Source of the DNA: Albidovulum aestuarii
Lineage (GTDB): Bacteria > Pseudomonadota > Alphaproteobacteria > Rhodobacterales > Rhodobacteraceae
DNA length: 64,000 nt
Assembly (NCBI RefSeq): GCF_029961185.1
Contig: NZ_JASBQQ010000001.1
Coordinates: 786,552 to 850,551 of the forward strand
Direction of reading: 5' to 3'
Below, in pieces: positions 275 through 39,486 of the stretch; position 1 is the first letter of the stretch; each line of letters opens with the position of its first letter. The notes beneath the pieces are model-generated. The model saw only the letters and a list, made by a program, of their open reading frames with translations. It searched no databases and was not told the origin of the DNA. Position numbers and translations under genes: made by a program.

Positions 275-811
275 GATCATCAGCCGACAAAAGAATGTTC
301 GAGAACCTTTCAAATGAAGCAGTCTTACACTCAACGGACGCCAAAGCCTCTTATTCGCGCGTTCAATTGTGGTCGTCTTCAACGGGTTCGTCCGGACTCG
401 ACGAATGCTTGGTTCAGGGAAGCTCCTTGCGGTGTGTGACGGCACGATGAAGGCCCCCTTTGGCCCGTTGCCATCCTGTCCTCCCTCGGCCCGTTCCTGC
501 CGTTCATCGAGGCGCCCCGCGCTGCCTAGCAACTTCACCGAACCTGCCGTTCGTTCCTTGGCACGGCTTTTCCATGTGACGGGATATCGCGAAGCTGTGC
601 GGAGTGGTTATTCACTTCTGACTTGCACATGCCTGCTTCCGGCATCTTCGGCGCAGTTCGGAAAACTGTGGATGTCCCGCTGAGTCGTACTGTCCTACAT
701 CGGGCAAGGCGGTCGCCGTCGGAGAGAGATTGGTACAAGGTTTCCAATTGGGCCGATCTTGATCGTACGATCCCCTTGGCGTGCATTGAATGAAATGATT
801 GAGCGAGAAAT
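275..811. other. Intergenic stretch with no supported gene
   Basis: About 540 bp between the Crp/Fnr-type gene and the rpoE promoter. Several short open frames exist on both strands, but none has recognisable domains, a good ribosome-binding site or protein-like composition. No tRNA, insertion-sequence end or convincing terminator was found. It could be decayed accessory DNA or hold a small RNA. Confidence 0.5.
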
Positions 812-841
812 TGATCCAGTTGATGCGCAGCTGCGTATCTG
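812..841 (+). promoter_or_regulatory. RpoE (ECF)-type promoter of rpoE-chrR
   Basis: TGATCC at 812-817, an 18-nt spacer, then TATCTG at 836-841. The same TGATCC-N18-TA geometry recurs at four other sites in this window. RpoE of R. sphaeroides is known to use TGATC-type -35 elements and to activate its own operon. Transcription would begin near 848, after the upstream ATG at 846, which argues for translation starting at 933 (or GTG 921). Confidence 0.75.
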
Positions 842-932
842 AGTTATGTTAGACCTGAATGTCGATATTCCATGCGCCGGTCGGTATGTGCCTTTGGTGC
901 CTCGAATTGAAAGCAGACAGGTGTCGAAACCA

Positions 933-1478
933 ATGGCCGAATTATCGCAGCAAACCTTGTGGATGCTGGCCGTAAGGGACAAGCGTGACCGCCAGGCCTT
1001 TTCGGCGATGTTCGATCATTTCGCGCCGCGCCTGAAGGGAATGATCATGCGCTCGGGAATCGCTGCGCATCAGGCTGAAGAGATCGTTCAGGACGTGATG
1101 CTGACAGTCTGGCGCAAGGCATCGATGTTCGATCCGCACCGCGCGCAGGTATCGGCCTGGATCTACCAGATCGCCCGCAACCGGCAGATCGACATGGTAC
1201 GCAAAGAACGGCGGCCAGAGCCGGAAGACCTGATCGAGGATCCCGGGGCCGAGCTCGATGCCAGCCAGATCCTGGCATTGGAACAGGAAGCAACAGAACT
1301 GAAGAACGCCCTCTCGCGGCTTTCTGGCGAACAGCGCGAGATGATTGAGAAGGCCTACCTCGGCGAACTGACGCATCAAGAGATTAGCACCCAGACAGGG
1401 TTGCCATTGGGGACAATCAAATCGCGTATCCGGCTGGGGCTGGAACGGCTGAGGCACGAGCTTAAGGGAATACGTTAA
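933..1478 (+). CDS. rpoE: RpoE-like ECF sigma factor (RpoE-ChrR type)
   Basis: A sigma factor of 181 residues from the chosen ATG. Region 2 is seen in FSAMFDHFAPRLKGMI, then AEEIVQDVMLTVWRKA and VSAWIYQIARNRQIDMVRK; region 4 in LSGEQREMIEKAYLGELTHQ followed by GLPLGTIKSRIRLGLERLR. The partner gene directly downstream is a ChrR zinc anti-sigma factor, which places it in the ECF group that answers singlet oxygen and organic peroxides in R. sphaeroides. The open frame extends to 846, but the promoter at 812-841 makes that start unlikely; GTG 921 is a weaker alternative. The stop codon is immediately followed by the chrR start, so the two are translationally coupled. The promoter match upstream predicts autoregulation. 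Confidence 0.93.
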   Translation: MAELSQQTLWMLAVRDKRDRQAFSAMFDHFAPRLKGMIMRSGIAAHQAEEIVQDVMLTVWRKASMFDPHRAQVSAWIYQIARNRQIDMVRKERRPEPEDLIEDPGAELDASQILALEQEATELKNALSRLSGEQREMIEKAYLGELTHQEISTQTGLPLGTIKSRIRLGLERLRHELKGIR

Positions 1479-2114
1479 ATGTCCGCGATCACCCATCATA
1501 CACCGGATGCCATGCTGGCGGCCTATGCCGCCGGGTCCCTGCCGCAGCCCTTCGCGCTGGTCGTTGCCAGCCATGTGTCGCTTTGCGTTCATTGCCGTGT
1601 GGCGCTTGAAGCGCATCACTCCGCCGGTGGCGCGGTTCTGGAAACCGTCGATCAGGTTGCGGTTTCAGGCAATCTCAAGGCCTATCTCCTCGCCAGGCTT
1701 GATACGCCATTCACGCCACAGCCCGTGGTAAAGCGGTCTGGCATCTTTCCGGGACCGGTCATGGAGGCCATGAAAGGGCGCGCGCCGCGGTGGAAGGCGC
1801 TGGGTGCAGGTGTGCGCCAGGATATTCTGATGGCCAGTAACGCCGGGTCCGTGCGTCTGCTCTATATCCCTGCCGGTCAGGCGGTGCCCGACCATAGCCA
1901 TGGCGGACTGGAACTGACTCTGGTTCTGCAGGGCAGTTTTACGGATGAAACCGGGGCTTTCGGAATCGGCGATCTTGAGGTTGCGGATGAGGACCTTGAT
2001 CACACACCGGTGGCTGGCCCCGGTGAGGCCTGCATCTGTCTTGCGGCGACCGATGCGCCGCTGCGTTTCAACTCGCTCATACCGCGCCTTTTGCAGCCGC
2101 TGTTCCGGATCTGA
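1479..2114 (+). CDS. chrR: ChrR-family zinc anti-sigma factor
   Basis: A protein of 211 residues with two domains. The N-terminal anti-sigma domain carries the zinc ligands His6 (or His7) and a H-x3-C-x2-C motif, His32, Cys36 and Cys39, the arrangement that holds RpoE inactive in R. sphaeroides ChrR. The C-terminal half is a cupin, seen in DHSHGGLELTLVLQGSF and the later GDLEVADEDLDHTP segment, which in the family is needed to respond to singlet oxygen. Its start abuts the rpoE stop with no gap, so sigma and anti-sigma are made together. A strong hairpin with a T-run follows about 25 bp downstream. Confidence 0.93.
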   Translation: MSAITHHTPDAMLAAYAAGSLPQPFALVVASHVSLCVHCRVALEAHHSAGGAVLETVDQVAVSGNLKAYLLARLDTPFTPQPVVKRSGIFPGPVMEAMKGRAPRWKALGAGVRQDILMASNAGSVRLLYIPAGQAVPDHSHGGLELTLVLQGSFTDETGAFGIGDLEVADEDLDHTPVAGPGEACICLAATDAPLRFNSLIPRLLQPLFRI

Positions 2115-2138
2115 TTGCAGTTATACCGTTCGCATGAG

Positions 2139-2173
2139 AGCCGCCGGTCGATCCGGCGGCTTTCTCTTTTTTT
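2139..2173 (+). terminator. Rho-independent terminator of rpoE-chrR
   Basis: A 9-bp perfect stem, AGCCGCCGG at 2139-2147 and CCGGCGGCT at 2153-2161, with a 5-nt loop, followed by a T-rich tract to 2173 including seven T in a row. Confidence 0.85.
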
Positions 2174-2212
2174 ATTATATTCAAATACTTAAATCACAAA
2201 TTCGTGATCCGA

Positions 2213-2242
2213 TGATCCACCATCCGATCGCCCCCGTACCCC
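2213..2242 (+). promoter_or_regulatory. RpoE-type promoter of the fasciclin gene
   Basis: TGATCC at 2213-2218, 18-nt spacer, TACCCC at 2237-2242. An additional TGATCC at 2205-2210 lies 8 bp upstream but has no TA at the N18 position. The leader to the ATG would be about 50 nt. The -10 is weaker than at the rpoE and DUF1365 sites but resembles that of the site at 35600 (TAACCC). Confidence 0.55.
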
Positions 2243-2299
2243 TTGCACGACCTTTGAAACAGACCGGGCAAAAAGGCCCGCCAACACGGAGACCATGAC

Positions 2300-2815
2300 A
2301 TGAGATCCAATCTGAAAACCGCCGCTGCCGCACTTGCCATCGCTGTTTCGGCCAGCGCCGTACAGGCCGCAAACATCGTTGAGATTGCCGCCGGGGACGA
2401 GCGCTTCTCAACCCTCGTTGCGGCAGTAACCGCTGCAGGTCTGGCTGAAACCCTGTCCGGGCCGGGCCCCTTCACTGTCTATGCGCCGCTGAACGACGCC
2501 TTTGCGGCGTTGCCAGCGGGCACGGTCGAATCCCTGCTCGAATCCGCGAACAAGGCGCAACTGACCGATGTTCTGCTTTACCACGTGGATGATCGCAAGC
2601 TGACGGCTGGCATGATCCCGTCCGGGTCGAATTACTTCAAGCCGCTTCTGGCCAGTGAGCGTCTCTGCATCACCGCAGGCAGCGGTGGCGTCACAATCGC
2701 GGACGGAACCGGCGAGATGGCGAATGTCATCGTGGCGGATATTATGGCCGACAACGGTGTGATTCATGTCGTCGACAAGGTCCTGCTTCCGGGCAACCGC
2801 CCTGCCTGCCACTGA
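2300..2815 (+). CDS. Secreted fasciclin (FAS1) domain protein
   Basis: A protein of 171 residues. Residues 1-23 are a Sec signal peptide (charged start, AAAALAIAVSASAVQA, cleavage after AQA or QAA). The rest is one FAS1 domain: FSTLVAAVTAAGLAETL, GPFTVYAPLNDAFAALP, VLLYHVDDRKL, and the closing ADIMADNGVIHVVDKVLLP. FAS1 proteins are extracellular or periplasmic adhesion or ligand-binding modules; no enzymatic role is implied. GGAG at 2288-2291 lies 8 nt before the ATG. It sits alone between the rpoE-chrR terminator and a convergent unit, behind a probable RpoE promoter, so it is likely an envelope-stress target. Confidence 0.9.
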   Translation: MRSNLKTAAAALAIAVSASAVQAANIVEIAAGDERFSTLVAAVTAAGLAETLSGPGPFTVYAPLNDAFAALPAGTVESLLESANKAQLTDVLLYHVDDRKLTAGMIPSGSNYFKPLLASERLCITAGSGGVTIADGTGEMANVIVADIMADNGVIHVVDKVLLPGNRPACH

Positions 2816-2858
2816 CCGGGTGCATGTCTGGTCAAAGTCGGCCCCATTGCTGAAAAAG

Positions 2859-2889
2859 ACCGGTGCAGCCAGACCAAGGCAGCACCGGT
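2859..2889. terminator. Hairpin between convergent genes
   Basis: Perfect inverted repeat ACCGGTGC (2859-2866) and GCACCGGT (2882-2889) with a 15-nt loop in the gap between the fasciclin gene and the SDR gene. No clear T-run follows, so its role as a terminator is inferred from position. Confidence 0.4.
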
Positions 2890-2949
2890 TCCATATTGTA
2901 TGAAGGCCGGGCGATCTTGCCAGCGCTGCGGTCGCCACAGCTATGCCGC

Positions 2950-3675
2950 CTATCGTCCGCGGTAGACCAAGACGTCAGGCAGAAAAACCAGGCTTTTCAT
3001 CAGCCACGAGAACGGCGCTGGAAAATCGGTGCGGAAACGGTTCGATCGCATGGCCCTCGCGACGCGCTCGGCTGCAGCTTCGGGCGACATGATCATCGGC
3101 ATGCGAAAGCTGTTCTTCTCGGTCAGCCGGGTCTTGATGAAGCCTGGATTGACGAGGCGAACGACAACGCCGGTGCCTCTCAGATCATGCCGCATGGTTT
3201 CAGCCAGGCTCACCAGGGCGGCTTTGCTGGCGCCATAGCCGATTGCGGCGGGCAGGCCCCGATACCCGGCCAGTGATCCGATCAGGGTGATATCACCGCG
3301 CCCTGCGCGGACCATCTGCGGCACAACCTCGCCCAGCACCCGCATCGCACCGATGAAGTTCACGTCGCACATCGTCTGGGCGGCATCCGTATCCCAGTCG
3401 GTCGCCCGCATCGGCGTATAGGCGCCCGCATTGTAGATGATCCCATCGACCGGCCCGACCGCGCGGACAGCACGCTGGACGGCCTCCCGATCGGTCACGT
3501 CGAAGGCAATGACACGTGCCGCCGTCAGGTCGGATGCAAGTGTGGTCAACCGCCCCTCGTCCCGCGCCGACAGGATCAGCCGCGCGCCCTCGCGATCCAG
3601 CTTCATGGCCAGAGCCCGGCCAAGACCCTCGCTCGCCCCGATCAGCCAGTAGGATCTGCCGCCAAACTCCGTCAC
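2950..3675 (-). CDS. Short-chain dehydrogenase/reductase (SDR)
   Basis: A classical SDR of 241 residues. The cofactor motif near residue 13 reads GASEGLGR, NAGA marks the central strand, and the catalytic residues are the Ser of LIGSLAGYRG and the Tyr and Lys of YGASK. The C-terminus ends shortly after a hydrophobic stretch (SWLMKSLVFLPDVL) that may touch the membrane. It starts with GTG at 3675, overlapping the stop of the upstream DUF1365 gene by 4 bases, so the two are co-translated from the RpoE-type promoter at 4453-4482. An SDR belongs to the R. sphaeroides RpoE-dependent gene group next to rpoE (from memory, RSP_1087-1091). The substrate is unknown; a lipid or aldehyde product is an inference from context. 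Confidence 0.88.
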   Translation of the reverse strand: MTEFGGRSYWLIGASEGLGRALAMKLDREGARLILSARDEGRLTTLASDLTAARVIAFDVTDREAVQRAVRAVGPVDGIIYNAGAYTPMRATDWDTDAAQTMCDVNFIGAMRVLGEVVPQMVRAGRGDITLIGSLAGYRGLPAAIGYGASKAALVSLAETMRHDLRGTGVVVRLVNPGFIKTRLTEKNSFRMPMIMSPEAAAERVARAMRSNRFRTDFPAPFSWLMKSLVFLPDVLVYRGR

Positions 3676-4445
3676 TCCGCGCGCCCCTGCAAACTGGTGC
3701 TGTCAGAGACAAGCGACACGGGGGGTGCGGGCGGCTTCAGGAACGGCGCGCGTTTCCACCACAGGATCACCGCCTGCCAATGGATCAGCGCAACCACCCG
3801 CGCCGCGCCGAACGGACGGCGCAGGGCGGACCAGAGCAGCAAGATGCTGGTCGCGGGACGGCGCGCGCCGCTGAGCGTCGCGACCACCCCGTCTTCCCCA
3901 TTTCCATAGAATATCCGGATGCGGACGGCATCTTCGGATAAGGCGAAGTTGAACCGATACTCGCCTGCCACCTTCTGAAACGGCGACACGTGCATTATTT
4001 TGGCGGCGGTGACCGTGTCGCTGGCGGCGATCGGACGGAAATCGCCATGCGCGCAGAAATAGCAGTGCCGGTGGCCGAACGTATTGTTGACTTCGGCGAT
4101 GAAAGCACAGGGGCTATCCTGCTTCATCGCGATCCAGAAGCTGACCGGGTTGAAGTGGAACCACAGAAAGCTTGGCTGCGTCAGCAGCAGCAGACGCGCG
4201 CCCTCAAGCGGAAAACCACGTTCTGCAAGCTCTTCGCGGAACCAATCAAAACCGTACCCCTCGTTTCGCGGCCCGCCATTGTGCCGGTCCCAGAGCGACC
4301 ATAGATTGAACCGGTTGCGCGACAGAAGAAACGGATCCGCCGCAGCATCATCATCGATCAGGACATAGTCGACGCCATAGCGGAAAGCGTTCCGTAACGC
4401 TCCGCGCCGGACATGCGTGGTTTGACCCTGAATATGCTCAATCAT
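3672..4445 (-). CDS. DUF1365 family protein
   Basis: The family is recognised from TTHVRRGALRNAFRYGVDYV near the start, then LLTQPSFLWFHFNPVSFWIA, the EVNNTFGHRHCY segment and MHVSPFQK. DUF1365 proteins have no proven biochemical role but are regularly found beside a flavin amine-oxidase-like protein and a cyclopropane-synthase-like methylase, as here across the divergent promoter. The start is set at ATG 4445, giving 257 residues. The frame is open to 4493, but the -10 element of the promoter lies at 4453-4458, so upstream starts could not be transcribed from it. With the RNA start expected at about 4446, the message may be leaderless. Its stop overlaps the SDR start. Confidence 0.85.
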   Translation of the reverse strand: MIEHIQGQTTHVRRGALRNAFRYGVDYVLIDDDAAADPFLLSRNRFNLWSLWDRHNGGPRNEGYGFDWFREELAERGFPLEGARLLLLTQPSFLWFHFNPVSFWIAMKQDSPCAFIAEVNNTFGHRHCYFCAHGDFRPIAASDTVTAAKIMHVSPFQKVAGEYRFNFALSEDAVRIRIFYGNGEDGVVATLSGARRPATSILLLWSALRRPFGAARVVALIHWQAVILWWKRAPFLKPPAPPVSLVSDSTSLQGRAE

Positions 4446-4452
4446 GACGTGC

Positions 4453-4482
4453 CTTATACGGCGCCAACGCGTCTTTGGATCA
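4453..4482 (-). promoter_or_regulatory. RpoE-type promoter of the DUF1365-SDR unit
   Basis: On the minus strand TGATCC (4482-4477), 18-nt spacer, TATAAG (4458-4453). This is the best match of the five sites. It faces away from the site at 4511-4540, the two -35 elements being about 28 bp apart. Confidence 0.8.
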
Positions 4483-4510
4483 CACAAAGTCACCCACCGC
4501 TTGCCTTTAT

Positions 4511-4540
4511 TGATCCAAAGGCGAAGCTCTTGCGTAGTCT
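4511..4540 (+). promoter_or_regulatory. RpoE-type promoter of the FAD/methylase operon
   Basis: TGATCC at 4511-4516, 18-nt spacer, TAGTCT at 4535-4540. Transcription should start near 4547, leaving a leader of about 23 nt with GGGATGGGG just before ATG 4570. The element and its leader recur in front of the barrel gene at 35600. Confidence 0.75.
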
Positions 4541-4569
4541 ACTGAAAAAGCACGTCGGGATGGGGAAAC

Positions 4570-5913
4570 ATGTTCGATCACGAGCACAGGGACCGAAAGC
4601 GGATTGCCATTGTCGGGGGTGGCATATCCGGCCTTTCGGCCGCCTATTACCTTTCGCAGCACCATGATGTGACCCTGTTTGAGGCCTCACCTCGCCTTGG
4701 CGGGCATGCGCGCACGGTCCTGGCCGGAAAGAATGGCGCCCAGCCGGTCGATACCGGGTTCATCGTGTTCAATTACGTGACCTATCCCAATCTCACCCGA
4801 CTTTTCCGCGAACTCGACGTGCCGGTCATCAAAAGCGAGATGAGTTTCGGGGCAAGCATTGACGATGGCCGGATCGAGTACGGGCTGAACAGCCTGCGCA
4901 GCATCCTTGCCCAGAAGCGCAATTTGCTGCGGCCCTCCTATTATGGGATGATTTCGGACATCATCAGGTTCGGGAAGCAGGCGGAACGGGCGGCAGATGG
5001 CGACAACAAGACCATCGGTGAGCTTGTGGATGAACTCCGTCTCGGTCACTGGTTTCGCAACAACTACCTGATACCGATGTGCGGCGCGATCTGGTCAACG
5101 CCGTCCGAGGATGTCGAACGCTTCCCGGCCCGATCGCTGGTTCGCTTTTTCAAAAATCACGCGCTGCTTGCAGGAGCTGGCCGGCATCAATGGTGGACGG
5201 TCAAGGGCGGAAGCATCGAATATGTCCGCCGCCTTGAAGCAGCACTTGTGCAACGCGGGTGCCGCATCCGCACCGGACAACCCGTCACGGGCATCGAACG
5301 GTTTCCCTTCGGTGTGACGGTTCGGGCGGCCCGTTGCGAAGCTGAGGAATTCGATAAGGTGATCTTTGCCTGCCACTCCGATCAGGCTCTGGCCATTCTG
5401 AAAGGCGCCGCAACCCCTGCCGAGACCGAGGCGCTGGGAAACATCCGCTACCAGCCCAACCGCGCAGTCCTGCACCGCGATACCAGCCAGATGCCAAGGC
5501 GGCGCGCCAGCTGGTCCAGCTGGGCCTATCGGTCGCAGGACGGTATGGTCAGCGTGACCTATTGGATGAACCGGCTGCAGAATATCCCCGAAACCGATCC
5601 CCTGTTTGTCACGCTCAACCCGTCCCGAAGCATCCCGCAGCAGGATATCTATGACGAGGTCGAGTTCTCCCACCCGGTATTCGATCAGGCTGCTCTGCGC
5701 GCGCAGGATCGCATCCGCGCGATGCAGGGGGAAAACCACACCTGGTTCGTCGGCGCCTATAACCGCTACGGCTTTCACGAAGATGGCATCGCAAGCGCCA
5801 TGCGCGTTGTCCGCATGATCAACCAAGGCACTCAGCAGAAAGACCCAAAGGATGTATCTTACCAACCGAGCGCTGAAATCGCAGTTCCTGTCGACTTGCG
5901 AACGTCTGCGTGA
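4570..5913 (+). CDS. FAD-dependent amine-oxidase-like protein of the lipid-modification operon
   Basis: A protein of 447 residues with an N-terminal Rossmann dinucleotide-binding motif (IAIVGGGISGLSAAYYL, residues 12-28), the acidic FEASPRLGGHA second motif, and a C-terminal NRYGFHEDGIASAMR segment that closes the FAD site. Members of this branch sit next to DUF1365 and cyclopropane-synthase-like proteins. In R. sphaeroides the matching RpoE-controlled locus contains genes needed to make furan fatty acids, with an O2-dependent step after methylation; this oxidase is a natural candidate for such a step, but that is inference. GGGG 4562-4565 precedes the ATG. Its last 62 bp overlap the methylase gene in another frame. 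Confidence 0.85.
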   Translation: MFDHEHRDRKRIAIVGGGISGLSAAYYLSQHHDVTLFEASPRLGGHARTVLAGKNGAQPVDTGFIVFNYVTYPNLTRLFRELDVPVIKSEMSFGASIDDGRIEYGLNSLRSILAQKRNLLRPSYYGMISDIIRFGKQAERAADGDNKTIGELVDELRLGHWFRNNYLIPMCGAIWSTPSEDVERFPARSLVRFFKNHALLAGAGRHQWWTVKGGSIEYVRRLEAALVQRGCRIRTGQPVTGIERFPFGVTVRAARCEAEEFDKVIFACHSDQALAILKGAATPAETEALGNIRYQPNRAVLHRDTSQMPRRRASWSSWAYRSQDGMVSVTYWMNRLQNIPETDPLFVTLNPSRSIPQQDIYDEVEFSHPVFDQAALRAQDRIRAMQGENHTWFVGAYNRYGFHEDGIASAMRVVRMINQGTQQKDPKDVSYQPSAEIAVPVDLRTSA

Positions 5914-7009
5914 CGGGCAACTGACGCTGAGAACGCCCGAAGGCGACACGCATCGGTTTGGCGCGACCGGACCAGAGGCCGAGATGACCATACGGGACTG
6001 GTCCGCCGTCTCGGCCATGGCGGCGCATGGGCAGGTCGGTTTGGGCGAAGCCTATGTTCAGGGCCTGTGGGACACATCGTCAATCGAAACGCTGATGACG
6101 GTTGCGATGCGCAACCGGGACGAAATGGGCGCCTATGATCATGCCGGCCCGTTCACCCGCGCGAAGTTCCGCCTTGTCGATACGGTGCTGCGCGCCAATT
6201 CGCGCCGCGGGGCGACCCGCAACATCCGGTCGCATTACGATGTCGGCAACGAATTCTACCAACTCTGGCTTGATGAGGGGATGACCTATTCTTCGGGCCT
6301 GTTTGCGGACGGCGACGATGACCTTGGGCGCGCGCAGCACCGCAAGAATGCCCGCGCCCTGTCCCGGCTGGGCGGCGGTGCGCGGGTTCTGGAGATCGGT
6401 TGCGGATGGGGCGGCTTTGCGGAACAGGCGGCGGGGGATGGCCGCGATGTGACCGGTGTCACAATCTCGCGCAATCAGCAGAGTTATGCGGAATGCAGGC
6501 TCGATGGACGCGCCGACATTCAGCTGATGGACTACCGCGACATTCGCGGGCAGTACGACAACATCGTCTCGATCGAGATGATCGAGGCCGTCGGCGCACG
6601 CTACTGGCCCAGTTACTTTTCAGTGCTGAAACGCAATCTGGCCGAGGGCGGACGCGCGCTTTTGCAGATCATTACTGTGTCCGACGGCTTCTTTGAAACC
6701 TACCGGACATCCTCGGACTATATCCGTCAATATGTGTTTCCGGGCGGCATGCTTTTGTCCGACACCGTGATTACCGAACAGGCCGGGAATGCAGGCCTTC
6801 AGCTGCGCGACAGTTTCGCATTCGGACCGGACTATGCCCGAACGTGCCGCCAGTGGTCCGAACGTCTGTCCGCGCAGAAGACCCGGATTGACGAACTGGG
6901 ATACGGCGAGGCGTTCTTCCGCAACTGGAAGTACTACCTTGAGATCTGCGCCGCCTCTTTCGCGGTCGGGCACACCAATGTCGTGCAGGTGGAGCTGGCC
7001 CATGCCTAG
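5852..7009 (+). CDS. Cyclopropane-fatty-acid-synthase-like SAM methyltransferase
   Basis: A protein of 385 residues. The SAM-binding loop VLEIGCGWGGF is at 179-189, preceded by RSHYDVGNEFYQLWLDEGMT (127-146) and followed by the IEMIEAVG active-site region and YIRQYVFPGG, all typical of the CFA synthase family that methylates unsaturated acyl chains of phospholipids. In R. sphaeroides a related methylase of the RpoE regulon (UfaM) makes a methylated unsaturated chain on the way to furan fatty acids; this is the likely counterpart, though an ordinary CFA synthase cannot be excluded. ATG 5852, with AAAGG just upstream, gives the N-terminal region seen in relatives even though it overlaps the FAD gene by 62 bp; the next internal Met is too late. 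Confidence 0.88.
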   Translation: MYLTNRALKSQFLSTCERLRDGQLTLRTPEGDTHRFGATGPEAEMTIRDWSAVSAMAAHGQVGLGEAYVQGLWDTSSIETLMTVAMRNRDEMGAYDHAGPFTRAKFRLVDTVLRANSRRGATRNIRSHYDVGNEFYQLWLDEGMTYSSGLFADGDDDLGRAQHRKNARALSRLGGGARVLEIGCGWGGFAEQAAGDGRDVTGVTISRNQQSYAECRLDGRADIQLMDYRDIRGQYDNIVSIEMIEAVGARYWPSYFSVLKRNLAEGGRALLQIITVSDGFFETYRTSSDYIRQYVFPGGMLLSDTVITEQAGNAGLQLRDSFAFGPDYARTCRQWSERLSAQKTRIDELGYGEAFFRNWKYYLEICAASFAVGHTNVVQVELAHA

Positions 7010-7496
7010 GCTGCTGCTGTCGCTCGTCCTTCTGCTCTGCCCGATGATCGCGCAGGCCGTTCCGGTATCATCGGCCTTTCCCGGCGCCGAGATGCGAGGT
7101 CAGGCGACGCTGCGCTTTTTGGGTCTGCCCTTGTACCAGGCGCGCCTCTACACGCCTGCGGGCCGCGCGCTCGACTGGCAAGAGGACATGGCGCTGGAAC
7201 TCACCTACCTGCGCAGATTGAGCGAAACCGATCTGGTCGAGGCGACCTTGCGCGAAATCAGCCGCACCGGCGGGCCGCTGCCGCTGCGGGATCAACTGCT
7301 GAACTGCTACGACGATGTTGGCAGAGGTGACCGGTATCTTGCGGTCTCAAACGGCCCGGACGAGGTCCTGTTCTGGCGAAACGGCCAGCGCATGTGCGCG
7401 CTGTCCCATCCCCGGATCAAGCAACGCTTCATGGCGATCTTTCTGGGCAACAATACCCGGTCGCCCAGCTTCACCCGCAGACTGCGCGGCGAGTGA
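7002..7496 (+). CDS. Secreted chalcone-isomerase-like protein
   Basis: A protein of 164 residues with a Sec signal peptide (MPRLLLSLVLLLCPMIAQA, cleavage after 19). The mature part resembles the bacterial chalcone-isomerase-like domain: RFLGLPLYQARLYTP, MALELTYLRRLSETDLVEAT, then CALSHPRIKQRFMAIFLG. The fold is related to fatty-acid-binding proteins, which suits a periplasmic or membrane-side lipid role, but no activity is established. ATG 7002 overlaps the methylase stop by 8 bases and its own stop overlaps the next start (TGATG), so it is tightly coupled. The frame is open upstream of 7002, but that part is the methylase gene read out of frame. Confidence 0.85.
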   Translation: MPRLLLSLVLLLCPMIAQAVPVSSAFPGAEMRGQATLRFLGLPLYQARLYTPAGRALDWQEDMALELTYLRRLSETDLVEATLREISRTGGPLPLRDQLLNCYDDVGRGDRYLAVSNGPDEVLFWRNGQRMCALSHPRIKQRFMAIFLGNNTRSPSFTRRLRGE

Positions 7497-8713
7497 TGGT
7501 TTACCCCCGGGTCAGCCTTTATGCGCTCATGCTGGCGGCTGCCGGTATCCCGCTCTATATCCATCTGCCGCGGTTTGCGTCGGTCGAACTTGGTATTGCA
7601 CTTGGGACGATTGGGACCGTTCTGCTGGTGATACGCCTGATCGACCTTGTGCAGGACCCGCTCATTGGTTGGGCCATCGACAGGTGGTCCCGTGGGCAGA
7701 GCCTGTTTGCGCTTGCAGCCGCAACTGGGCTGGCCATCGGATTTCCGCTGCTTTTCATGCTGCGGCCCGGGCCGCATGTGGTTGCCGAACTGGTGGCGGT
7801 CCTCATCCTGCTGTTTTCGGCCTACAGCCTTGGTACGATCCTGCTGTATGGACGCAGCGCGACCCTTGCCGCGCGCCCCGACCCGCACGCGCTCATGACG
7901 CTTGCAGCCTATCGCGAAGGGGGCATGCTGGGCGGTGTCGTGATCGCGTCGATTGCGCCGTCGCTGCTGTTCGGCATGGGGGCTTCGGGTCAGGGATATC
8001 CCGCTTTCGGCATCCTTCTTGGCGCAATCGCGATCATTGCAGCCGTTCTGACCCGGCCGATCTGGCGCCGCAAACCGGTAATTGGTGAAGGGCTGTCCCT
8101 GTCCGGCATGGCCCGGGCAGGGGCGCTCAGACTCCTCGCCATCGCGCTGGTGAACAGTCTGCCCGTGGCCATCACCTCGACCCTGTTCCTGTTCTTCGTC
8201 GAAGACCGCCTTGACCTTCCCGGAAAGGCAGGCCCGCTTCTGGTTCTCTTCTTCCTGTCTGCAGGGTTAAGCGTTCCTGCCTGGACCCGGGCCAGCCATC
8301 GGCTGGGGCCAAGGACGACCATGCTGATTGCCATGCCACTTGCCGTTCTGGGCTTTGTCGGCGCGGCCTTCCTGGCGCCCGGAAACCTGTTCGGTTTCGC
8401 ATTGATCTGCATCGCATCCGGGGCGGCACTTGGCGCCGACATGGTCATACTGCCAGCCATGTTCTCAATCGCGCTGACTGCGGCCGGACTCAACGCCTCG
8501 ACTGCCTTCGGCATCTGGTCCTTCGCAGGAAAGCTCAGTCTGGCACTTGCCGCCTTCGCGGTACTTCCCCTGCTTGGCCAGAGCGACTTTGTCCCCGGCC
8601 AGCCCAACAGCCCGGAAGCCCTGGCCACGCTCAACATCGCCTATGCCGCCGTGCCCTGCATCCTGAAACTTTTCGCGATTGGCATGGTCCTCGCGCTGCC
8701 GTCAAAGGAGTGA
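7496..8713 (+). CDS. MFS transporter (GPH/melibiose-symporter-like)
   Basis: A protein of 405 residues, mostly hydrophobic, with about 12 predicted membrane segments. The stretch RLIDLVQDPLIGWAIDRW at about residues 44-61 is the signature loop of the glycoside-pentoside-hexuronide branch of the MFS. A GPH-type permease is part of the RpoE-linked gene group in R. sphaeroides. The cargo is unknown; in this operon a lipid, lipid precursor or oxidation product is more likely than a sugar, by inference. The start at ATG 7496 overlaps the preceding stop; GTG 7493 is possible. It ends with an AAAGGAG that serves the next gene. Confidence 0.82.
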   Translation: MVYPRVSLYALMLAAAGIPLYIHLPRFASVELGIALGTIGTVLLVIRLIDLVQDPLIGWAIDRWSRGQSLFALAAATGLAIGFPLLFMLRPGPHVVAELVAVLILLFSAYSLGTILLYGRSATLAARPDPHALMTLAAYREGGMLGGVVIASIAPSLLFGMGASGQGYPAFGILLGAIAIIAAVLTRPIWRRKPVIGEGLSLSGMARAGALRLLAIALVNSLPVAITSTLFLFFVEDRLDLPGKAGPLLVLFFLSAGLSVPAWTRASHRLGPRTTMLIAMPLAVLGFVGAAFLAPGNLFGFALICIASGAALGADMVILPAMFSIALTAAGLNASTAFGIWSFAGKLSLALAAFAVLPLLGQSDFVPGQPNSPEALATLNIAYAAVPCILKLFAIGMVLALPSKE

Positions 8714-8718
8714 AGCTT

Positions 8719-9279
8719 ATGAGAATCGCCGTCGTCATCCTGTTTCTGTTCGTCGTGGGGATTGCCGCCAGATCCCTTTTTCTGAGTTTCCGCGCCCAGT
8801 CCCCAGACGACTATACCGATACGGGACCTGCGTTTTCCCTTAAGGAGCATCTGTCGGGTCCTATCCTGTCAGAGGGGGTGATCTATGGGCCAACAGGCAA
8901 GATGACCAATACCTTCGTCGCCGAGATGGTCGGCGAATGGGACGGCGATACCGGCACGCTGAGTGAGCATTTCGTCTATTCCAATGGCGTCGAGCAGCAC
9001 CGCAAATGGTATCTGAAACTCGGCCCCGACAACACGTTCACGGCAACGGCGGATGATATCGTGGGCGAGGCGCAGGGCATCGTGTCGGGGGCGACCGTGA
9101 TGCTGCGCTACAAGATTGTGCTGCCACCAGACTCGGGGGGCCACACGCTGTCGGCAACCGACTGGATGTACCTGACACGTGATGGCTCCATAATGAACAA
9201 GTCCGAAATGCGAAAGTTCGGCATCAAGGTCGCCGAACTTGTAGCCACTATGCGTCCAAGCACCGGCAAGCCTAACTAG
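8719..9279 (+). CDS. DUF3833 family protein, membrane-anchored
   Basis: A protein of 186 residues with an N-terminal membrane segment (MRIAVVILFLFVVGIAARSL) that is either an anchor or an uncleaved signal. The body resembles DUF3833: LSGPILSEGVIYGP, FVAEMVGEWDGDTGTL, ARYK-like VMLRYKIVLP and TDWMYLTRDGSIMNKSEMRK. No function is known; the family is calycin-like in sequence pattern and recurs in these lipid-modification loci. ATG 8719 is chosen because AAAGGAG (8704-8710) lies 8 bp upstream; GTG 8710 falls inside that site. It is the last gene of the five-gene unit that starts at 4570. Confidence 0.8.
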   Translation: MRIAVVILFLFVVGIAARSLFLSFRAQSPDDYTDTGPAFSLKEHLSGPILSEGVIYGPTGKMTNTFVAEMVGEWDGDTGTLSEHFVYSNGVEQHRKWYLKLGPDNTFTATADDIVGEAQGIVSGATVMLRYKIVLPPDSGGHTLSATDWMYLTRDGSIMNKSEMRKFGIKVAELVATMRPSTGKPN

Positions 9280-9464
9280 GCTAAAGAGTTTGATGTGAAC
9301 GCGCCCGACATGTCGCCCGCTTCGTTCTCCGCCAACTTCCAACCATCATGTGTAATTCTTATGGCCAAGCCGCTTCCCAATCTCCAATCCAATTGAAGTC
9401 CGATTTGGTGAACTGGAAGAACGAAACGTCGTTGCATTCAGCTATATCTCTCCTGAGACGCGGG

Positions 9465-35175: not shown

Positions 35176-35345
35176 CGGGCAGCATCGGCACCGCGTCCTC
35201 GCCGAGAAAAACGCCTGATTATTGAGCAAAAACACCGCCTCATGGTCAATCGAACGGCAATGACGCAAAGAACGCGCCGACCGAATTGACAAGACAACCC
35301 ATGCATGCGGCATAATCAGTGCAATGTTGGGGGGTAATCGGCCGC

Positions 35346-35546
35346 ATGATCGCAGATAGTCCGGCAATCCGCGACGCGCTGTCGGCCAACATTTTCACAA
35401 TTGCCGTACTGGCCTTCACCGAGGCGCTTGAAACACAGGTCTGCGCAGTTCGCACCTGCCTCGTGCTTGGCAAGGACGCCAACGATCAGATTGTCCGTGA
35501 TCATCACTCGCTTCATCATCCGCCCCTTCGTGGGATCGGACCCTAA
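35346..35546 (+). CDS. Possible small protein, no known family
   Basis: An open frame of 66 residues from ATG 35346 (MIADSPAIRDALSANIFTIA...) in the 530-bp gap after the zincin gene. The N-terminal half has plausible composition; the C-terminal end is rich in His and Pro. No clear ribosome-binding site is visible and the family is unknown. The remaining part of this gap (35176-35345, 35547-35599) shows nothing I can name. It may be non-coding. Confidence 0.25.
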   Translation: MIADSPAIRDALSANIFTIAVLAFTEALETQVCAVRTCLVLGKDANDQIVRDHHSLHHPPLRGIGP

Positions 35547-35599
35547 TTCCAGCTGGAGGAGTATCCCGTGGACGGTCAGACTTCCTTCACTGAATTGTT

Positions 35600-35629
35600 T
35601 GATCCAAACCCGCAACTCTTGCGTAACCC
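35600..35629 (+). promoter_or_regulatory. RpoE-type promoter of the barrel-hydrolase operon
   Basis: TGATCC at 35600-35605, 18-nt spacer, TAACCC at 35624-35629. The segment from 35599 to about 35684 aligns without gaps to 4510-4595, including the GGGATGGGGAAAC ribosome-binding block and the start codon position (GTG 35659 here, ATG 4570 there). Confidence 0.6.
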
Positions 35630-35706
35630 TGTCACCAGACGAGGTGGGATGGGGAAACGTGTTCGATCACAAGCGCATGGATCCGGAAGATGAGAGGAGG
35701 CGCGCA

Positions 35707-37149
35707 TTGAGCCGTTTTCGATACTCTATGGCAGAGATGAGGGCGGGCACCCTTCTGATTGTGTGTCTGGCGGCGGTGCCGGCTCAGGCCCAGGACCGGG
35801 ATCGGATGCTCTTCCACGACTCGAACGGCCTGACCGTGCGCGGTCACCTGCAATTTGGTTTTAACGCCGTCAGCGAGCAGAACCTGTTCTGGGACCTCGC
35901 CGCGACGACCGCGCCGGGCAGTGGGTATGACCCTGATACGAACTGGCTGGAAGTGTACATCAAACCCGGTATCAGCTTCGAATATGAGCTCGACGCAGGT
36001 GCCGTGCTTTATGGCAAACTCTCGGCCGTATCGTCCTATACTCTGGGCACCGACGCCTTCGACACGGGCGACACCGGCGCCACAACGCTCGAAGAGGCCT
36101 ATCTTGCCATCCGTGGCGATCAGGGCAGCGGCCTTTCCTACGATGTGTCGCTCGGTGCACGCGAATTGACCCTCGGGACCGGCATGCTGATCGCAAGCGG
36201 AGGGACCAGCGGATTCGAACGCGGCGCGCTGAAGTTCGGCCCGCGCAAGGCTTGGGAAATGGCCGCAATCGGACGCCTGACCTACGGGAACGTCACCGGG
36301 ACGGCGTTCTATCTGGACCCGAACGAGTTGCCATCCACCGACGGCGGCAACCAACTCGCAGGTGTCGATCTGCGCATGGATGACCCAAGGGGCGGTTATC
36401 TCGGGGCCACATTCGTGGACGTGCTCAAGTCCGACTCTCCGTACCCCCAGGCAGCACCCGGCGGCGTTGGCGCGCCCACGGTAACGCCCGGCGCTCGGGA
36501 AGACACCAAGACCCTGAACATTTACGCCAAGACGAACCCTTTCTCAGGCGACCTGGAAAACTGGACCTTTACGAGCGACCTCGCCTACCAGTGGAATGAC
36601 CGGATCGACATGGAGGCCTGGGCCGGTCGCGTTACGGCCGGCTATACGTTTGCAGGCCTGCCATGGGCGCCAAACCTCACACTGGGCTACCAGACGTTTT
36701 CGGGGGACGATCCGGACACGTCGAAACTGGAACGGTTCGACCCGCTTTATTATCAGGGAAGCCCCAGCGCCTGGGCGACAGGGTCCAAATCGGCCTCGAC
36801 CTTTATCAACTCTAACGCGAACGCGCTCACGCTGGCACTCAGGGTCCAGCCGACACAGCAGGATACCCTGACACTGAGGTACGCGCATATCCGGGCGAAC
36901 GAGTTGAACAGCCCGGTCCAGTTCGGTCAGGCGACCCGTGTGGATATCAACGGAAATGTGGTGTCGGGCGTGACGGATGCGCATCTCGCTGATGACATCT
37001 TCCTTGAATACAGCCGCATCATCAACCGAAACACTTTTCTGGCGGCCGGCGCTTCCGTCTCCTTCCCAGGTACGGGAATAGACAACGTCATCGGCCAAAA
37101 CGCTGACCCGTGGACTGGAGGATTCGTAAATGTCGTCTTCAATTTCTAA
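35707..37149 (+). CDS. Outer-membrane beta-barrel protein (porin-like)
   Basis: A protein of about 480 residues. From TTG 35707 it begins MSRFRYSMAEMRAGTLLIVC and ends the signal peptide at VPAQA. Many alternating strands follow (LTVRGHLQFGFNAVSEQN, NWLEVYIKPGISFEYELDAG, WAGRVTAGYTFAGLPWAPN, TLTLRYAHIRANELNSP) and the last residue is Phe (FVNVVFNF), as in outer-membrane barrels. A perfect AGGAGG (35695-35700) lies 6 bp before the TTG. GTG 35659, which corresponds to ATG 4570 in the duplicated leader, is an alternative that would add 16 residues before the signal peptide. It overlaps the next gene by 20 bases. Confidence 0.8.
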   Translation: MSRFRYSMAEMRAGTLLIVCLAAVPAQAQDRDRMLFHDSNGLTVRGHLQFGFNAVSEQNLFWDLAATTAPGSGYDPDTNWLEVYIKPGISFEYELDAGAVLYGKLSAVSSYTLGTDAFDTGDTGATTLEEAYLAIRGDQGSGLSYDVSLGARELTLGTGMLIASGGTSGFERGALKFGPRKAWEMAAIGRLTYGNVTGTAFYLDPNELPSTDGGNQLAGVDLRMDDPRGGYLGATFVDVLKSDSPYPQAAPGGVGAPTVTPGAREDTKTLNIYAKTNPFSGDLENWTFTSDLAYQWNDRIDMEAWAGRVTAGYTFAGLPWAPNLTLGYQTFSGDDPDTSKLERFDPLYYQGSPSAWATGSKSASTFINSNANALTLALRVQPTQQDTLTLRYAHIRANELNSPVQFGQATRVDINGNVVSGVTDAHLADDIFLEYSRIINRNTFLAAGASVSFPGTGIDNVIGQNADPWTGGFVNVVFNF

Positions 37150-38461
37150 GGCAGCTCTGATCGCGGTCAGTTTCGGGATCAGCGCGGCGTCAATGGCTAC
37201 GGCCCAGAACGCGCCGCTTTCGGCCCAAGACTCGGACCCGCGGGTCATGGGCTGGATGGAAGGTTTCCCACCGTCGCCGGACAAGCTCATCACCCAGCCG
37301 GACTCAAACTTTTTCAGCTTTCCCAAGTTGCGCTGGTCGGTCTGCCATCTGCGCGAGTTCCTGCCGACCGAAGAAATCAGCCGAGGCCTCGGCGCACCGG
37401 TACCGCTCGACTACCTGACGCCCGCCGAGTTCGCCGAGACAGCGCGTGAAATTGATGCGCTGACCTTCACCCCGATCGATGGCGACGCGCCGATGACGTG
37501 GGAGCAATCGCTCTACGCCAACTACACCGACGGCATCCTTATCCTGCACATGGACCGCGTGGTCTACGAGCGCTATTTCGGCTGCCTCGCCGAGGACGGC
37601 AAGCACGCGGCGATGTCGATGACCAAGTCCGTCACCGGCCTTCTGGGAGAGATCCTTGTGGCCGAGGGTGTGCTCGACGATACGGCACTGGTCCGCGACA
37701 TCATCCCCGAGATCGGCGACAGCGCCTTTGCCACCGCGACCGTGCGGCAAGTCATGGATATGACGACCGGCGTCCAGTATTCGGAAAACTACTCCGACCC
37801 CAATGCCGACATCTGGCTTTACTCCAGGGCGGCCAGTCCGCTACCGAAACCAGAGGACTACGAGGGCCCGGACGGGTATTGGGAATACCTTCAACAGGTG
37901 AAGCCCGAGGGCAATCACGGCGATCAGTTCCACTACAAGACCATCAACTCCGATATGCTCGGCTGGATGATCAGCCGCGTTACGGGCAAGTCAGTGACCG
38001 AGCTTGCCTCGGAACGGCTCTGGCAGCGCATGGGCGCCGAACAGGACGCCTACCAGACGGTCGACGGCAAGGGCGTGCCCTTCGCTGGCGGCGGCATATC
38101 GGCCGGCCTGCGCGACCTCGGCCGGCTCGGTCTGCTGATGCTGAACGGGGGCGAGATCAACGGCGAGCGCCTTTTCCCGGCCGAGGTCGTGGACAATATC
38201 CGCGCCGGCGGGGACCCGGCGAAGTTCACGGGCTTCGCCACGATCCCGAATGGCAGCTACACCAGCCAGTGGTGGGTCTTCCATAACGATCACGGCGCCT
38301 TTGCCGCACGCGGCGTTCACGGGCAGACGATCTATGTCGATCCGACCGCCGACATGGTTCTCGTGCGGTTCGCCTCGTTCCCGCAGGCGCAGAACGGCTT
38401 CATCGACCCGACCTCGCTGCCCGCCTATCAGGCCGTGGCGGAATATCTCATGTCGCGCTGA
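37130..38461 (+). CDS. Secreted class C beta-lactamase/NylB-like serine hydrolase
   Basis: A protein of 443 residues with a signal peptide (SKAALIAVSFGISAASMATA). The nucleophile motif is Ser163-x-x-Lys166 in AMSMTKSVTG, the Tyr motif is YKTIN (Tyr269), and the third element is HGQTIYVDP near the end. The layout resembles 6-aminohexanoate-dimer hydrolases and esterases of the family more than true beta-lactamases. It starts inside the end of the barrel gene (ATG 37130), so the two form an operon: an outer-membrane pore with a periplasmic hydrolase. Confidence 0.85.
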   Translation: MSSSISKAALIAVSFGISAASMATAQNAPLSAQDSDPRVMGWMEGFPPSPDKLITQPDSNFFSFPKLRWSVCHLREFLPTEEISRGLGAPVPLDYLTPAEFAETAREIDALTFTPIDGDAPMTWEQSLYANYTDGILILHMDRVVYERYFGCLAEDGKHAAMSMTKSVTGLLGEILVAEGVLDDTALVRDIIPEIGDSAFATATVRQVMDMTTGVQYSENYSDPNADIWLYSRAASPLPKPEDYEGPDGYWEYLQQVKPEGNHGDQFHYKTINSDMLGWMISRVTGKSVTELASERLWQRMGAEQDAYQTVDGKGVPFAGGGISAGLRDLGRLGLLMLNGGEINGERLFPAEVVDNIRAGGDPAKFTGFATIPNGSYTSQWWVFHNDHGAFAARGVHGQTIYVDPTADMVLVRFASFPQAQNGFIDPTSLPAYQAVAEYLMSR

Positions 38462-38562: not shown

Positions 38563-39486
38563 ATGACCACCAAACTCACCCGTCGTCACGCTCTGCTGGC
38601 CGGGGCCGCCGCACCGCTTGTTGCGCTCGCCGCCACGCCTGCCCGCGCAAAGGCCGACATGAAGGGCATGACCACGCCGCTCTTCAGCCGCTTCAAGCAC
38701 GGCGATTTCGAGGTGACGACCCTTCTGGCCGGGACAAGGCCGGTGGAAGAGCCGCAATCGATCTTCGGCATGAATGTCAGCGCCGAGGACTTTGCCGCCG
38801 TCTCGGACGCCGCGCATCTGCCGACCAATGTCGCCCAGTTTTTCTTCACGCCGACGGTGGTGAATACCGGGGAAGAGCTCGTGCTCTTTGACACAGGCCT
38901 CAATGCCGAAGGCATAACGGCCGCTTTGGCAGCCGCCGGATACACGCCCGATCAGGTCGATACCGTCGTCATCACACATATGCATGGCGACCATATCGGC
39001 GGGCTGAACTCCGATGCCGGGGCAACCTTCCCCAATGCCCGCTATGTCACCGGATCGACCGAACACAACCACTGGTCAGCGGCGGGCAATGAGGGTTTCG
39101 ACGGCAAGGTCAAGCCGCTCAATGACAAGTTCACCTTCCTCGACGATGGCGGCAGCGTCGCCTCGGGCATCACGGCGCTTGCCGCGCATGGCCATACGCC
39201 CGGCCATATGGGGTACATGATCGAAAGCGGCGGCAAGGGTCTGGTGCTGATCGCCGATACCGCGAACCACTATGTCTGGTCGCTGGCCAAGCCCGACTGG
39301 GAGGTGAAGTTCGACATGGACAAGGCCGCCGCCGCACAGACCCGCCGCAAGATGCTCGGCATGATCGCCGCCGACCGGCTGCCCTTCATCGGCTATCACA
39401 TGCCCTTCCCCGCCACCGGCTTCGTCGAGGCCGATGGCGACGGATTCCGCTATGTGCCGTCCTCATATCAGCTTATGCTTGGCTGA
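38563..39486 (+). CDS. Tat-exported metallo-beta-lactamase-fold hydrolase
   Basis: A protein of 307 residues with a twin-arginine-type leader (TRRHALLAGAAAPLVALAA, cleavage after ARA). The zinc site is HMHGDH at 139-144 plus GHTPGHMGY, LIADTANHYVW and the C-terminal IGYHMPFP. The substrate is unknown; the family includes lactonases and esterases. CGGAGG lies 6 bp before ATG 38563. It follows the serine hydrolase by 101 bp on the same strand and may be co-transcribed, giving two exported hydrolases downstream of one barrel protein. Confidence 0.88.
   Translation: MTTKLTRRHALLAGAAAPLVALAATPARAKADMKGMTTPLFSRFKHGDFEVTTLLAGTRPVEEPQSIFGMNVSAEDFAAVSDAAHLPTNVAQFFFTPTVVNTGEELVLFDTGLNAEGITAALAAAGYTPDQVDTVVITHMHGDHIGGLNSDAGATFPNARYVTGSTEHNHWSAAGNEGFDGKVKPLNDKFTFLDDGGSVASGITALAAHGHTPGHMGYMIESGGKGLVLIADTANHYVWSLAKPDWEVKFDMDKAAAAQTRRKMLGMIAADRLPFIGYHMPFPATGFVEADGDGFRYVPSSYQLMLG

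Follow-up and report, generated by a model that had tools for sequence, protein, structure and literature searches.

The outer-membrane beta-barrel gene of Albidovulum aestuarii appears to start within a copied expression cassette that originated at the 5' end of a ufaD-like flavin oxidase gene. The analysed stretch of DNA, referred to here as the window, comprises 64,000 nt of assembly GCF_029961185.1 (contig NZ_JASBQQ010000001.1, positions 786,552-850,551, forward strand); the whole 4.24 Mb genome is designated G000. According to the preferred reading, to which we assign a probability of roughly 0.8, the cassette was copied in an ancestor shared by A. aestuarii and its sister species G297 and became fused, in frame, with the 5' end of the barrel gene, bringing the barrel-hydrolase operon under the control of RpoE. 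The copied piece would have encompassed ~85 bases of the ufaD-like gene, i.e. promoter, leader, ribosome-binding site, start codon and about nine codons. The barrel-hydrolase pair itself would have been acquired by insertion between a zincin gene and a metallo-beta-lactamase-fold gene, with the cassette supplying promoter and translation start in place of the regulator and palindrome seen at many related loci. The promoter motif predicts that RpoE would transcribe this putative envelope module once singlet-oxygen or organic-peroxide stress has led to turnover of ChrR; the physiological role envisaged for the operon is likewise presumptive. The relevant features are listed in Table 1.

Table 1. 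Features of the window and, in the last row, of an example locus from a barrel relative
Feature	Position	Strand	Basis or remark
rpoE, ECF sigma factor gene	846..1478	+	Sigma70_r2/r4; RpoE-type site upstream at 812-837
chrR, anti-sigma factor gene	1479..2114	+	TIGR02451 above cut-off; ChrR cupin
DUF1365 gene, UfaO-like	3672..4493	-	Domain match; furthest upstream start shown
Divergent RpoE-type promoter of DUF1365 (UfaO-like) gene	4457..4482	-	Motif scan
Donor cassette	4510..4594	+	62/85 match to recipient block
RpoE/ECF11-type promoter of flavin oxidase gene	4511..4536	+	Motif scan; kept in family
GGGATGGGGAAAC, presumed ribosome-binding stretch of donor	4557..4569	+	One of two genomic occurrences
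Flavin amine-oxidase-family gene, UfaD-like, donor	4570..5913	+	Pfam Amino_oxidase
Recipient cassette (promoter, pre-start sequence, start codon, first codons)	35599..35683	+	62/85 to 4510-4594
RpoE/ECF11-type promoter TGATCC-N16-CGTA of barrel gene	35600..35625	+	24/26 identical in G297
GGGATGGGGAAAC, presumed ribosome-binding stretch of recipient	35646..35658	+	One of two genomic occurrences
Outer-membrane beta-barrel gene	35659..37149	+	Pfam Alginate_exp; read from cassette GTG
NylB-like serine hydrolase gene, beta-lactamase fold, barrel partner	37130..38461	+	Pfam Beta-lactamase
Metallo-beta-lactamase-fold gene	38563..39486	+	Domain match; same site in genus members without barrel gene
Helix-turn-helix gene, example locus	L069:1477-1944	-	Divergent from barrel-hydrolase pair

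The recipient block (35599-35683) and the donor block (4510-4594) were found to be identical at exactly 62 of 85 positions without a gap, in agreement with the gapless match of about 62 positions given in the preliminary description. Across the plus strand of the window, the donor block scores a mean of 21.4 identities (sd 4.0); its next best place reaches 43 identities on that strand, the best place on the minus strand reaches 40, and the maxima in 60 first-order Markov sequences of 128 kb with the dinucleotide make-up of the window ranged from 38 to 46. When the whole genome was searched with the recipient block, the block itself was followed by the donor at E 3e-8, and no third match below E 0.1 was obtained in the 4.24 Mb (next match, E 0.107). 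Chance similarity was rejected on the basis of these comparisons, and a repeat family was rejected on account of there being two copies only in the genome. The preliminary description had also considered that the block might be common upstream of unrelated genes; this was checked in the same genome, where it is not the case.

Identity is unevenly distributed along the two blocks. The part from the -35 to the -10 element matches at 23 of 27 positions, and GGGATGGGGAAAC, the start codon and the first codons together match at 33 of 38, consistent with the earlier claim that the similarity runs past what a sigma factor needs and into the coding frame. The bases between the -10 element and the ribosome-binding site agree at 6 of 20 positions, a background level that leaves the exact boundaries of the copied piece uncertain. 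Each block contains one copy of GGGATGGGGAAAC; the 4.24 Mb genome has no other exact copy, and the reversed pattern was not found there. Since identity has dropped to background in the central part of the leader and both ends have been kept at equal spacing, the comparison suggests an old event with selection acting on promoter and translation start. As a control, 25 sites of the form TGATCC-N15..17-CGTA from the same genome were aligned at their -10 elements and compared over the 58 downstream bases (27 entries, two neighbouring sites each being entered twice). The donor-recipient pair was identical at 39 of these 58 positions and other distinct pairs of RpoE-type sites at no more than 25, and similarity owed to the promoter motif alone was rejected accordingly. 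A conserved RNA fold across the translation start was also rejected (z 0.34 and -0.12).

The barrel gene continues the reading frame set by the copied start codon, and VFDHKRMDPEDERRRALSRFRYSMAEMRAG precedes the hydrophobic part of the signal peptide. We infer that the GTG of the cassette serves as the start of the barrel gene, for which an in-frame TTG at 35707, located behind GAGAGGAGG, represents a possible alternative. In several barrel relatives the leader is likewise open and comparable in length, with an unrelated sequence. When G000 is compared with G297, the first nine codons differ by two amino-acid changes and no silent change, such that the leader peptide is not visibly constrained; from codon 34 onwards, 35 silent and 11 amino-acid changes were counted in 463 codons. 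Comparison of the same two genomes yielded 101 of 109 identical positions for the block and 361 of 423 for the preceding intergenic DNA, a weak difference (p 0.055). No solved structure was related to the barrel by sequence at E 0.001, and the best PDB relatives of the hydrolase are 6-aminohexanoate-dimer hydrolases (E 3e-61). The metallo-beta-lactamase-fold gene downstream could possibly be read through from the captured promoter.

Both components of an RpoE-ChrR system are encoded in the window (sigma factor: TIGR02937 sigma70-ECF, 83.8 bits, cut-off 42.9; ChrR: TIGR02451, 191 bits, cut-off 124.5), and TGATCC-N16-CGTA precedes the barrel gene, two features expected of an RpoE-ChrR (ECF11) regulon. 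Assignment of the sigma factor to the ECF11 group is deduced from its ChrR partner, no ECF11-specific sigma model being among the hits. TGATCC-N16-CGTA was taken to be the RpoE/ECF11-type promoter consensus, an assumption backed by its presence before rpoE and the flavin oxidase gene. Five TGATCC-N14..20-CGTA sites were observed in the window, compared with 0.54 expected from shuffling, and these precede rpoE (812), a fasciclin gene (2213), the DUF1365 gene (4457, other strand), the oxidase gene (4511) and the barrel gene (35600). At 4457-4536, the divergent RpoE-type promoters of the DUF1365 and oxidase genes are situated 28 bases apart.

Passages of PMC6852236 describe a core RpoE-ChrR regulon of about eight genes, which include rpoE-chrR and the furan fatty acid genes, together with an extended regulon in selected species. 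UfaD is predicted in a passage of PMC7380195 to contain an NAD-FAD-binding domain, UfaO being a DUF1365 protein. The rpoE-chrR pair is common to the window and the core (ECF11) regulon of Rhodobacter sphaeroides as presented in these passages, and the window likewise carries RpoE-type promoters before genes for an FAD-binding oxidase and a DUF1365 protein (PMC6852236, PMC7380195). The barrel-hydrolase operon does not appear in the passages of the two papers that deal with the RpoE-ChrR regulon (PMC6852236, PMC7380195); an extended species-specific regulon is mentioned in the review (PMC6852236). The operon would represent a new candidate member of the singlet-oxygen regulon.

By domain content and neighbourhood, the oxidase and DUF1365 genes are likely orthologous to those for UfaD and UfaO; the DUF1365 reading frame was drawn from its furthest upstream start, so that its true start may be later. 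The oxidase gene is present in 9 of 22 genus genomes (E 1e-80), and an RpoE-type promoter was identified at all nine of these loci, including that of G000. The same applies to 28 of the 29 other-genus loci that were read, from 112 other-genus genomes with a match, the site being TGATCT at two of the 28. Based on this distribution, the RpoE-type promoter of the oxidase gene is judged to be old. The starts of many of these orthologs resemble ATG-TT-GATCA, as in the two blocks; in G280, which represents another genus, the oxidase donor has both GGTGGGATG and a GTG start in common with the blocks. Donor orthologs were collected by protein search, because the G297 donor escaped detection when the genus was searched at the DNA level with the donor block.

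The barrel gene was compared with 80 named loci, the best of 150 barrel relatives, a set from which records very near to G000 may be absent. Upstream DNA of 160 bases or more is available for 78 of these loci; six have fewer than 500 bases, two of these being too short for the block. The preliminary description had looked to related loci for a decision on the origin of the cassette. In this comparison none of the 80 barrel relatives (78 with enough upstream DNA) was shown to carry the block, the best reaching 39 of 85 positions, and the donor family was shown to keep its RpoE-type promoter. Among the same best 80 of 150, a hydrolase relative follows the barrel gene at 70 loci and precedes it at one, and the barrel relatives extend to groups as distant as a cyanobacterium and a verrucomicrobium. 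The gene has a patchy distribution, being present at 64% identity or more in 14 of 294 other family genomes and at high identity in 1 of 21 other genus genomes. In the flanking DNA fetched for the 80 named loci, which is short in some cases, no match at E 1e-15 was obtained to the metallo-beta-lactamase-fold, pfkB, zincin or gltX genes, nor to the oxidase, CFA-type or rpoE products.

Because the oxidase promoter is family-wide and the block is absent from the barrel relatives, the 5' end of the oxidase gene was identified as the source. On comparative grounds, copying from the oxidase to the barrel gene is counted among the points regarded as shown, along with the homology of the blocks, the missing regulator-palindrome pair and the synteny with G297. 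The observed pattern is that of promoter capture: a homologous block stands at the recipient with an intact donor elsewhere in the genome, and relatives of the recipient lack the block and relatives of the donor have the promoter. The recipient block matches the donor of its own genome at 62/85, that of G280 at 61/85, that of G297 at 60/86 and that of G312, a further sister species, at 57/85; the donors match each other at 54/87 to 68/86. In a tree of six blocks, the two recipients were separated from the four donors with a support of 90, but the blocks are too short for the tree to identify the donor lineage. The copying event predates the split of G000 and G297, the only two species in which the recipient copy is known, a restriction that counts against the preferred reading. 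Also on that side of the balance are the background identity between the -10 element and the ribosome-binding site, the unconstrained leader peptide with its alternative TTG start, the weak difference in conservation between the block and the intergenic DNA, and the nearly equal closeness of the block to its own donor and that of G280.

A small related helix-turn-helix gene was detected at 22 of the 80 barrel loci and is located upstream and divergent at 21 of them; its product yields only sub-threshold winged-helix Pfam matches. Barrel loci with the divergent gene mostly carry an upstream palindrome, written [GA]CCCANNNTGGG[CT], and GCCCATTTTGGGC is an instance beside such a gene, Thetidibacter halocola being a relative with a locus of this type. 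Across the 73 barrel loci with more than 700 bases upstream, the palindrome [GA]CCCA-N3-TGGG[CT] is present at 20 of the 21 that encode the regulator and at 2 of the remaining 52 (Fisher p 1e-14, an optimistic value, since the same loci served both to define the motif and to count it). The helix-turn-helix protein and the palindrome are likely to form a regulator-operator pair. The pair cannot have been the sole ancestral state, as both elements are missing from about 50 of the 73 loci. No match to the regulator at E 0.001 was found in G000 or G297, the control genomes being matched in three of three cases, and the palindrome is absent before the barrel gene of both species even when one mismatch is allowed. 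A weak match (31%) to the regulator in G312 counts against the preferred reading.

The zincin gene is present in 22 of 22 genus genomes. In 8 of 11 fetched relatives, including G312, the metallo-beta-lactamase-fold gene and pfkB lie beyond it, as a rule separated from it by further open frames; in the other three, pfkB lies there without the metallo-beta-lactamase-fold gene. Seven of the 11 harbour the metallo-beta-lactamase-fold gene between zincin and pfkB in the absence of a barrel match, and only G312 contains the hydrolase gene and a barrel remnant. This variable content indicates that the barrel-hydrolase pair was probably acquired by insertion into the interval between the zincin and metallo-beta-lactamase-fold genes. 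G297 displays the same arrangement as G000 and carries the block at the syntenic site (80/85); in the main alignments between 24 and 64 kb of the window, the DNA of the two genomes is 86-93% identical. G312 lacks a counterpart of window positions 35281-37024, so that it is without the block and retains no more of the barrel gene than its final 41 codons; at this deletion of about 1.7 kb (L214, around 2057-2061), the flanking matches overlap by 5 bases. The synteny in G297 and the remnant in G312 place the pair in the common ancestor.

Independent emergence of two RpoE promoters with similar translation starts is regarded as highly improbable. Such convergence would accommodate the unmatched bases between promoter and ribosome-binding site (6/20) and has a parallel in the unrelated RpoE-type site of the barrel gene in Marimonas, but it does not account for the equal gapless spacing, the 13-mer unique to the pair, the shared codons or a downstream match (39/58) far above that of all other RpoE-site pairs. 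Equal spacing, the rare pre-start sequence and the shared codons instead favour descent, as the preliminary description had argued; its proposal that copying of the cassette captured the gene into a stress regulon is supported as far as descent is concerned, with transcription by RpoE predicted from the motif. Copying in the reverse direction, from the barrel to the oxidase gene, in favour of which nothing was found, is given next to no weight. It was rejected on the same upstream comparison of both gene families: the oxidase promoter is family-wide, and, among the best 80 of 150 barrel relatives, 78 are without an exact RpoE-type site and none has the block.

Capture in another species, followed by arrival of the barrel-hydrolase pair together with its cassette, is considered unlikely. 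The patchy distribution of the barrel gene (14/294 family and 1/21 genus genomes) and its reach into distant groups would fit such a history, as would the recipient block being about as near to the G280 donor (61/85) as to its own (62/85). Against this stand the 78 testable named relatives (within the best 80 of 150), none of which has the block, as well as the G297 synteny and G312 remnant, by which the pair was already in the common ancestor. A doubtful, though somewhat less unlikely, proposition concerns the route and is compatible with the preferred reading, namely that the whole donor gene was duplicated beside the barrel gene and a deletion then fused the two 5' ends. The in-frame join is in keeping with this route, and a deletion of about 1.7 kb did hit the locus in G312; however, the 120 bases compared after the block show no similarity to the donor gene, and none of the flanks of the 80 loci (best 80 of 150) has an oxidase, CFA-type or rpoE gene at E 1e-15.

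The growth of regulons is usually ascribed to point mutations that build a site or to the transfer of genes that bring their own promoters along. Promoter capture is known from experimental evolution and the transfer of non-coding DNA from comparative work; the copying of a promoter onto another gene is a known kind of event. If the preferred reading, i.e. copying of the ufaD-like cassette onto the barrel gene, holds, the locus would provide a good natural specimen, in which a member of an alternative-sigma-factor regulon passed on its promoter, ribosome-binding site and codons and in which another mode of control can still be seen in relatives. The barrel gene seems to have entered that regulon in one step that is readable in the sequence, and a probable dedicated regulator with its palindrome in relatives can be set against the RpoE-type promoter present here. 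In PMC11111574, on promoter capture, acquired genes are activated via tandem duplication; likewise, the acquired gene would here gain expression, as predicted, from DNA duplicated within its own genome. Unlike the tandem duplication of that report, the piece is short, dispersed and natural and includes a ribosome-binding site and codons (PMC11111574). The deletion-born fusions described in PMC12803068 similarly place the 5' end of one gene onto another, whereas here the donor is intact and the fusion is not traced to a deletion (PMC12803068). No donor remnant or fusion intermediate was seen in the 120 bases after the block or in the fetched flanks. Searches of the open-licence literature, which covered some of the gene names, returned no paper on the recipient locus and few relevant papers on promoter capture, mobile promoters or regulatory switching.

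An exact RpoE-type site (TGATC[CA]-N15..17-CGTA) within 500 bases upstream was observed at 2 of the 80 named barrel loci, both from Marimonas (L116 and L118), where TGATCC-N16-CGTA is located 102 and 90 bases, respectively, before the barrel match and is unrelated to the copied block. With a spacing of 16 and no mismatch, two barrel loci have a site and three controls have none; with one mismatch allowed, the count is three for the barrel loci and 0, 1 and 0 for the controls. Judged from the motif, the barrel-hydrolase module may have been recruited to the RpoE regulon a second time and independently, in what counts as one event since both species belong to a single genus. It is a speculative and rather improbable extension that the module joined the singlet-oxygen regulon on two or more occasions and by separate routes (the copied cassette and Marimonas), which would imply a novel envelope function in that response, and that the start block has remained similar in both genes because it acts as a shared control site of regulon messages.

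The rpoE-chrR-ufa cluster (window 808-9311) is only 79% identical to its counterpart in G297 (L064), compared with the 86-93% observed between G000 and G297 for the main aligned stretches at 24-64 kb, and the cluster may have been exchanged in one of the two species.
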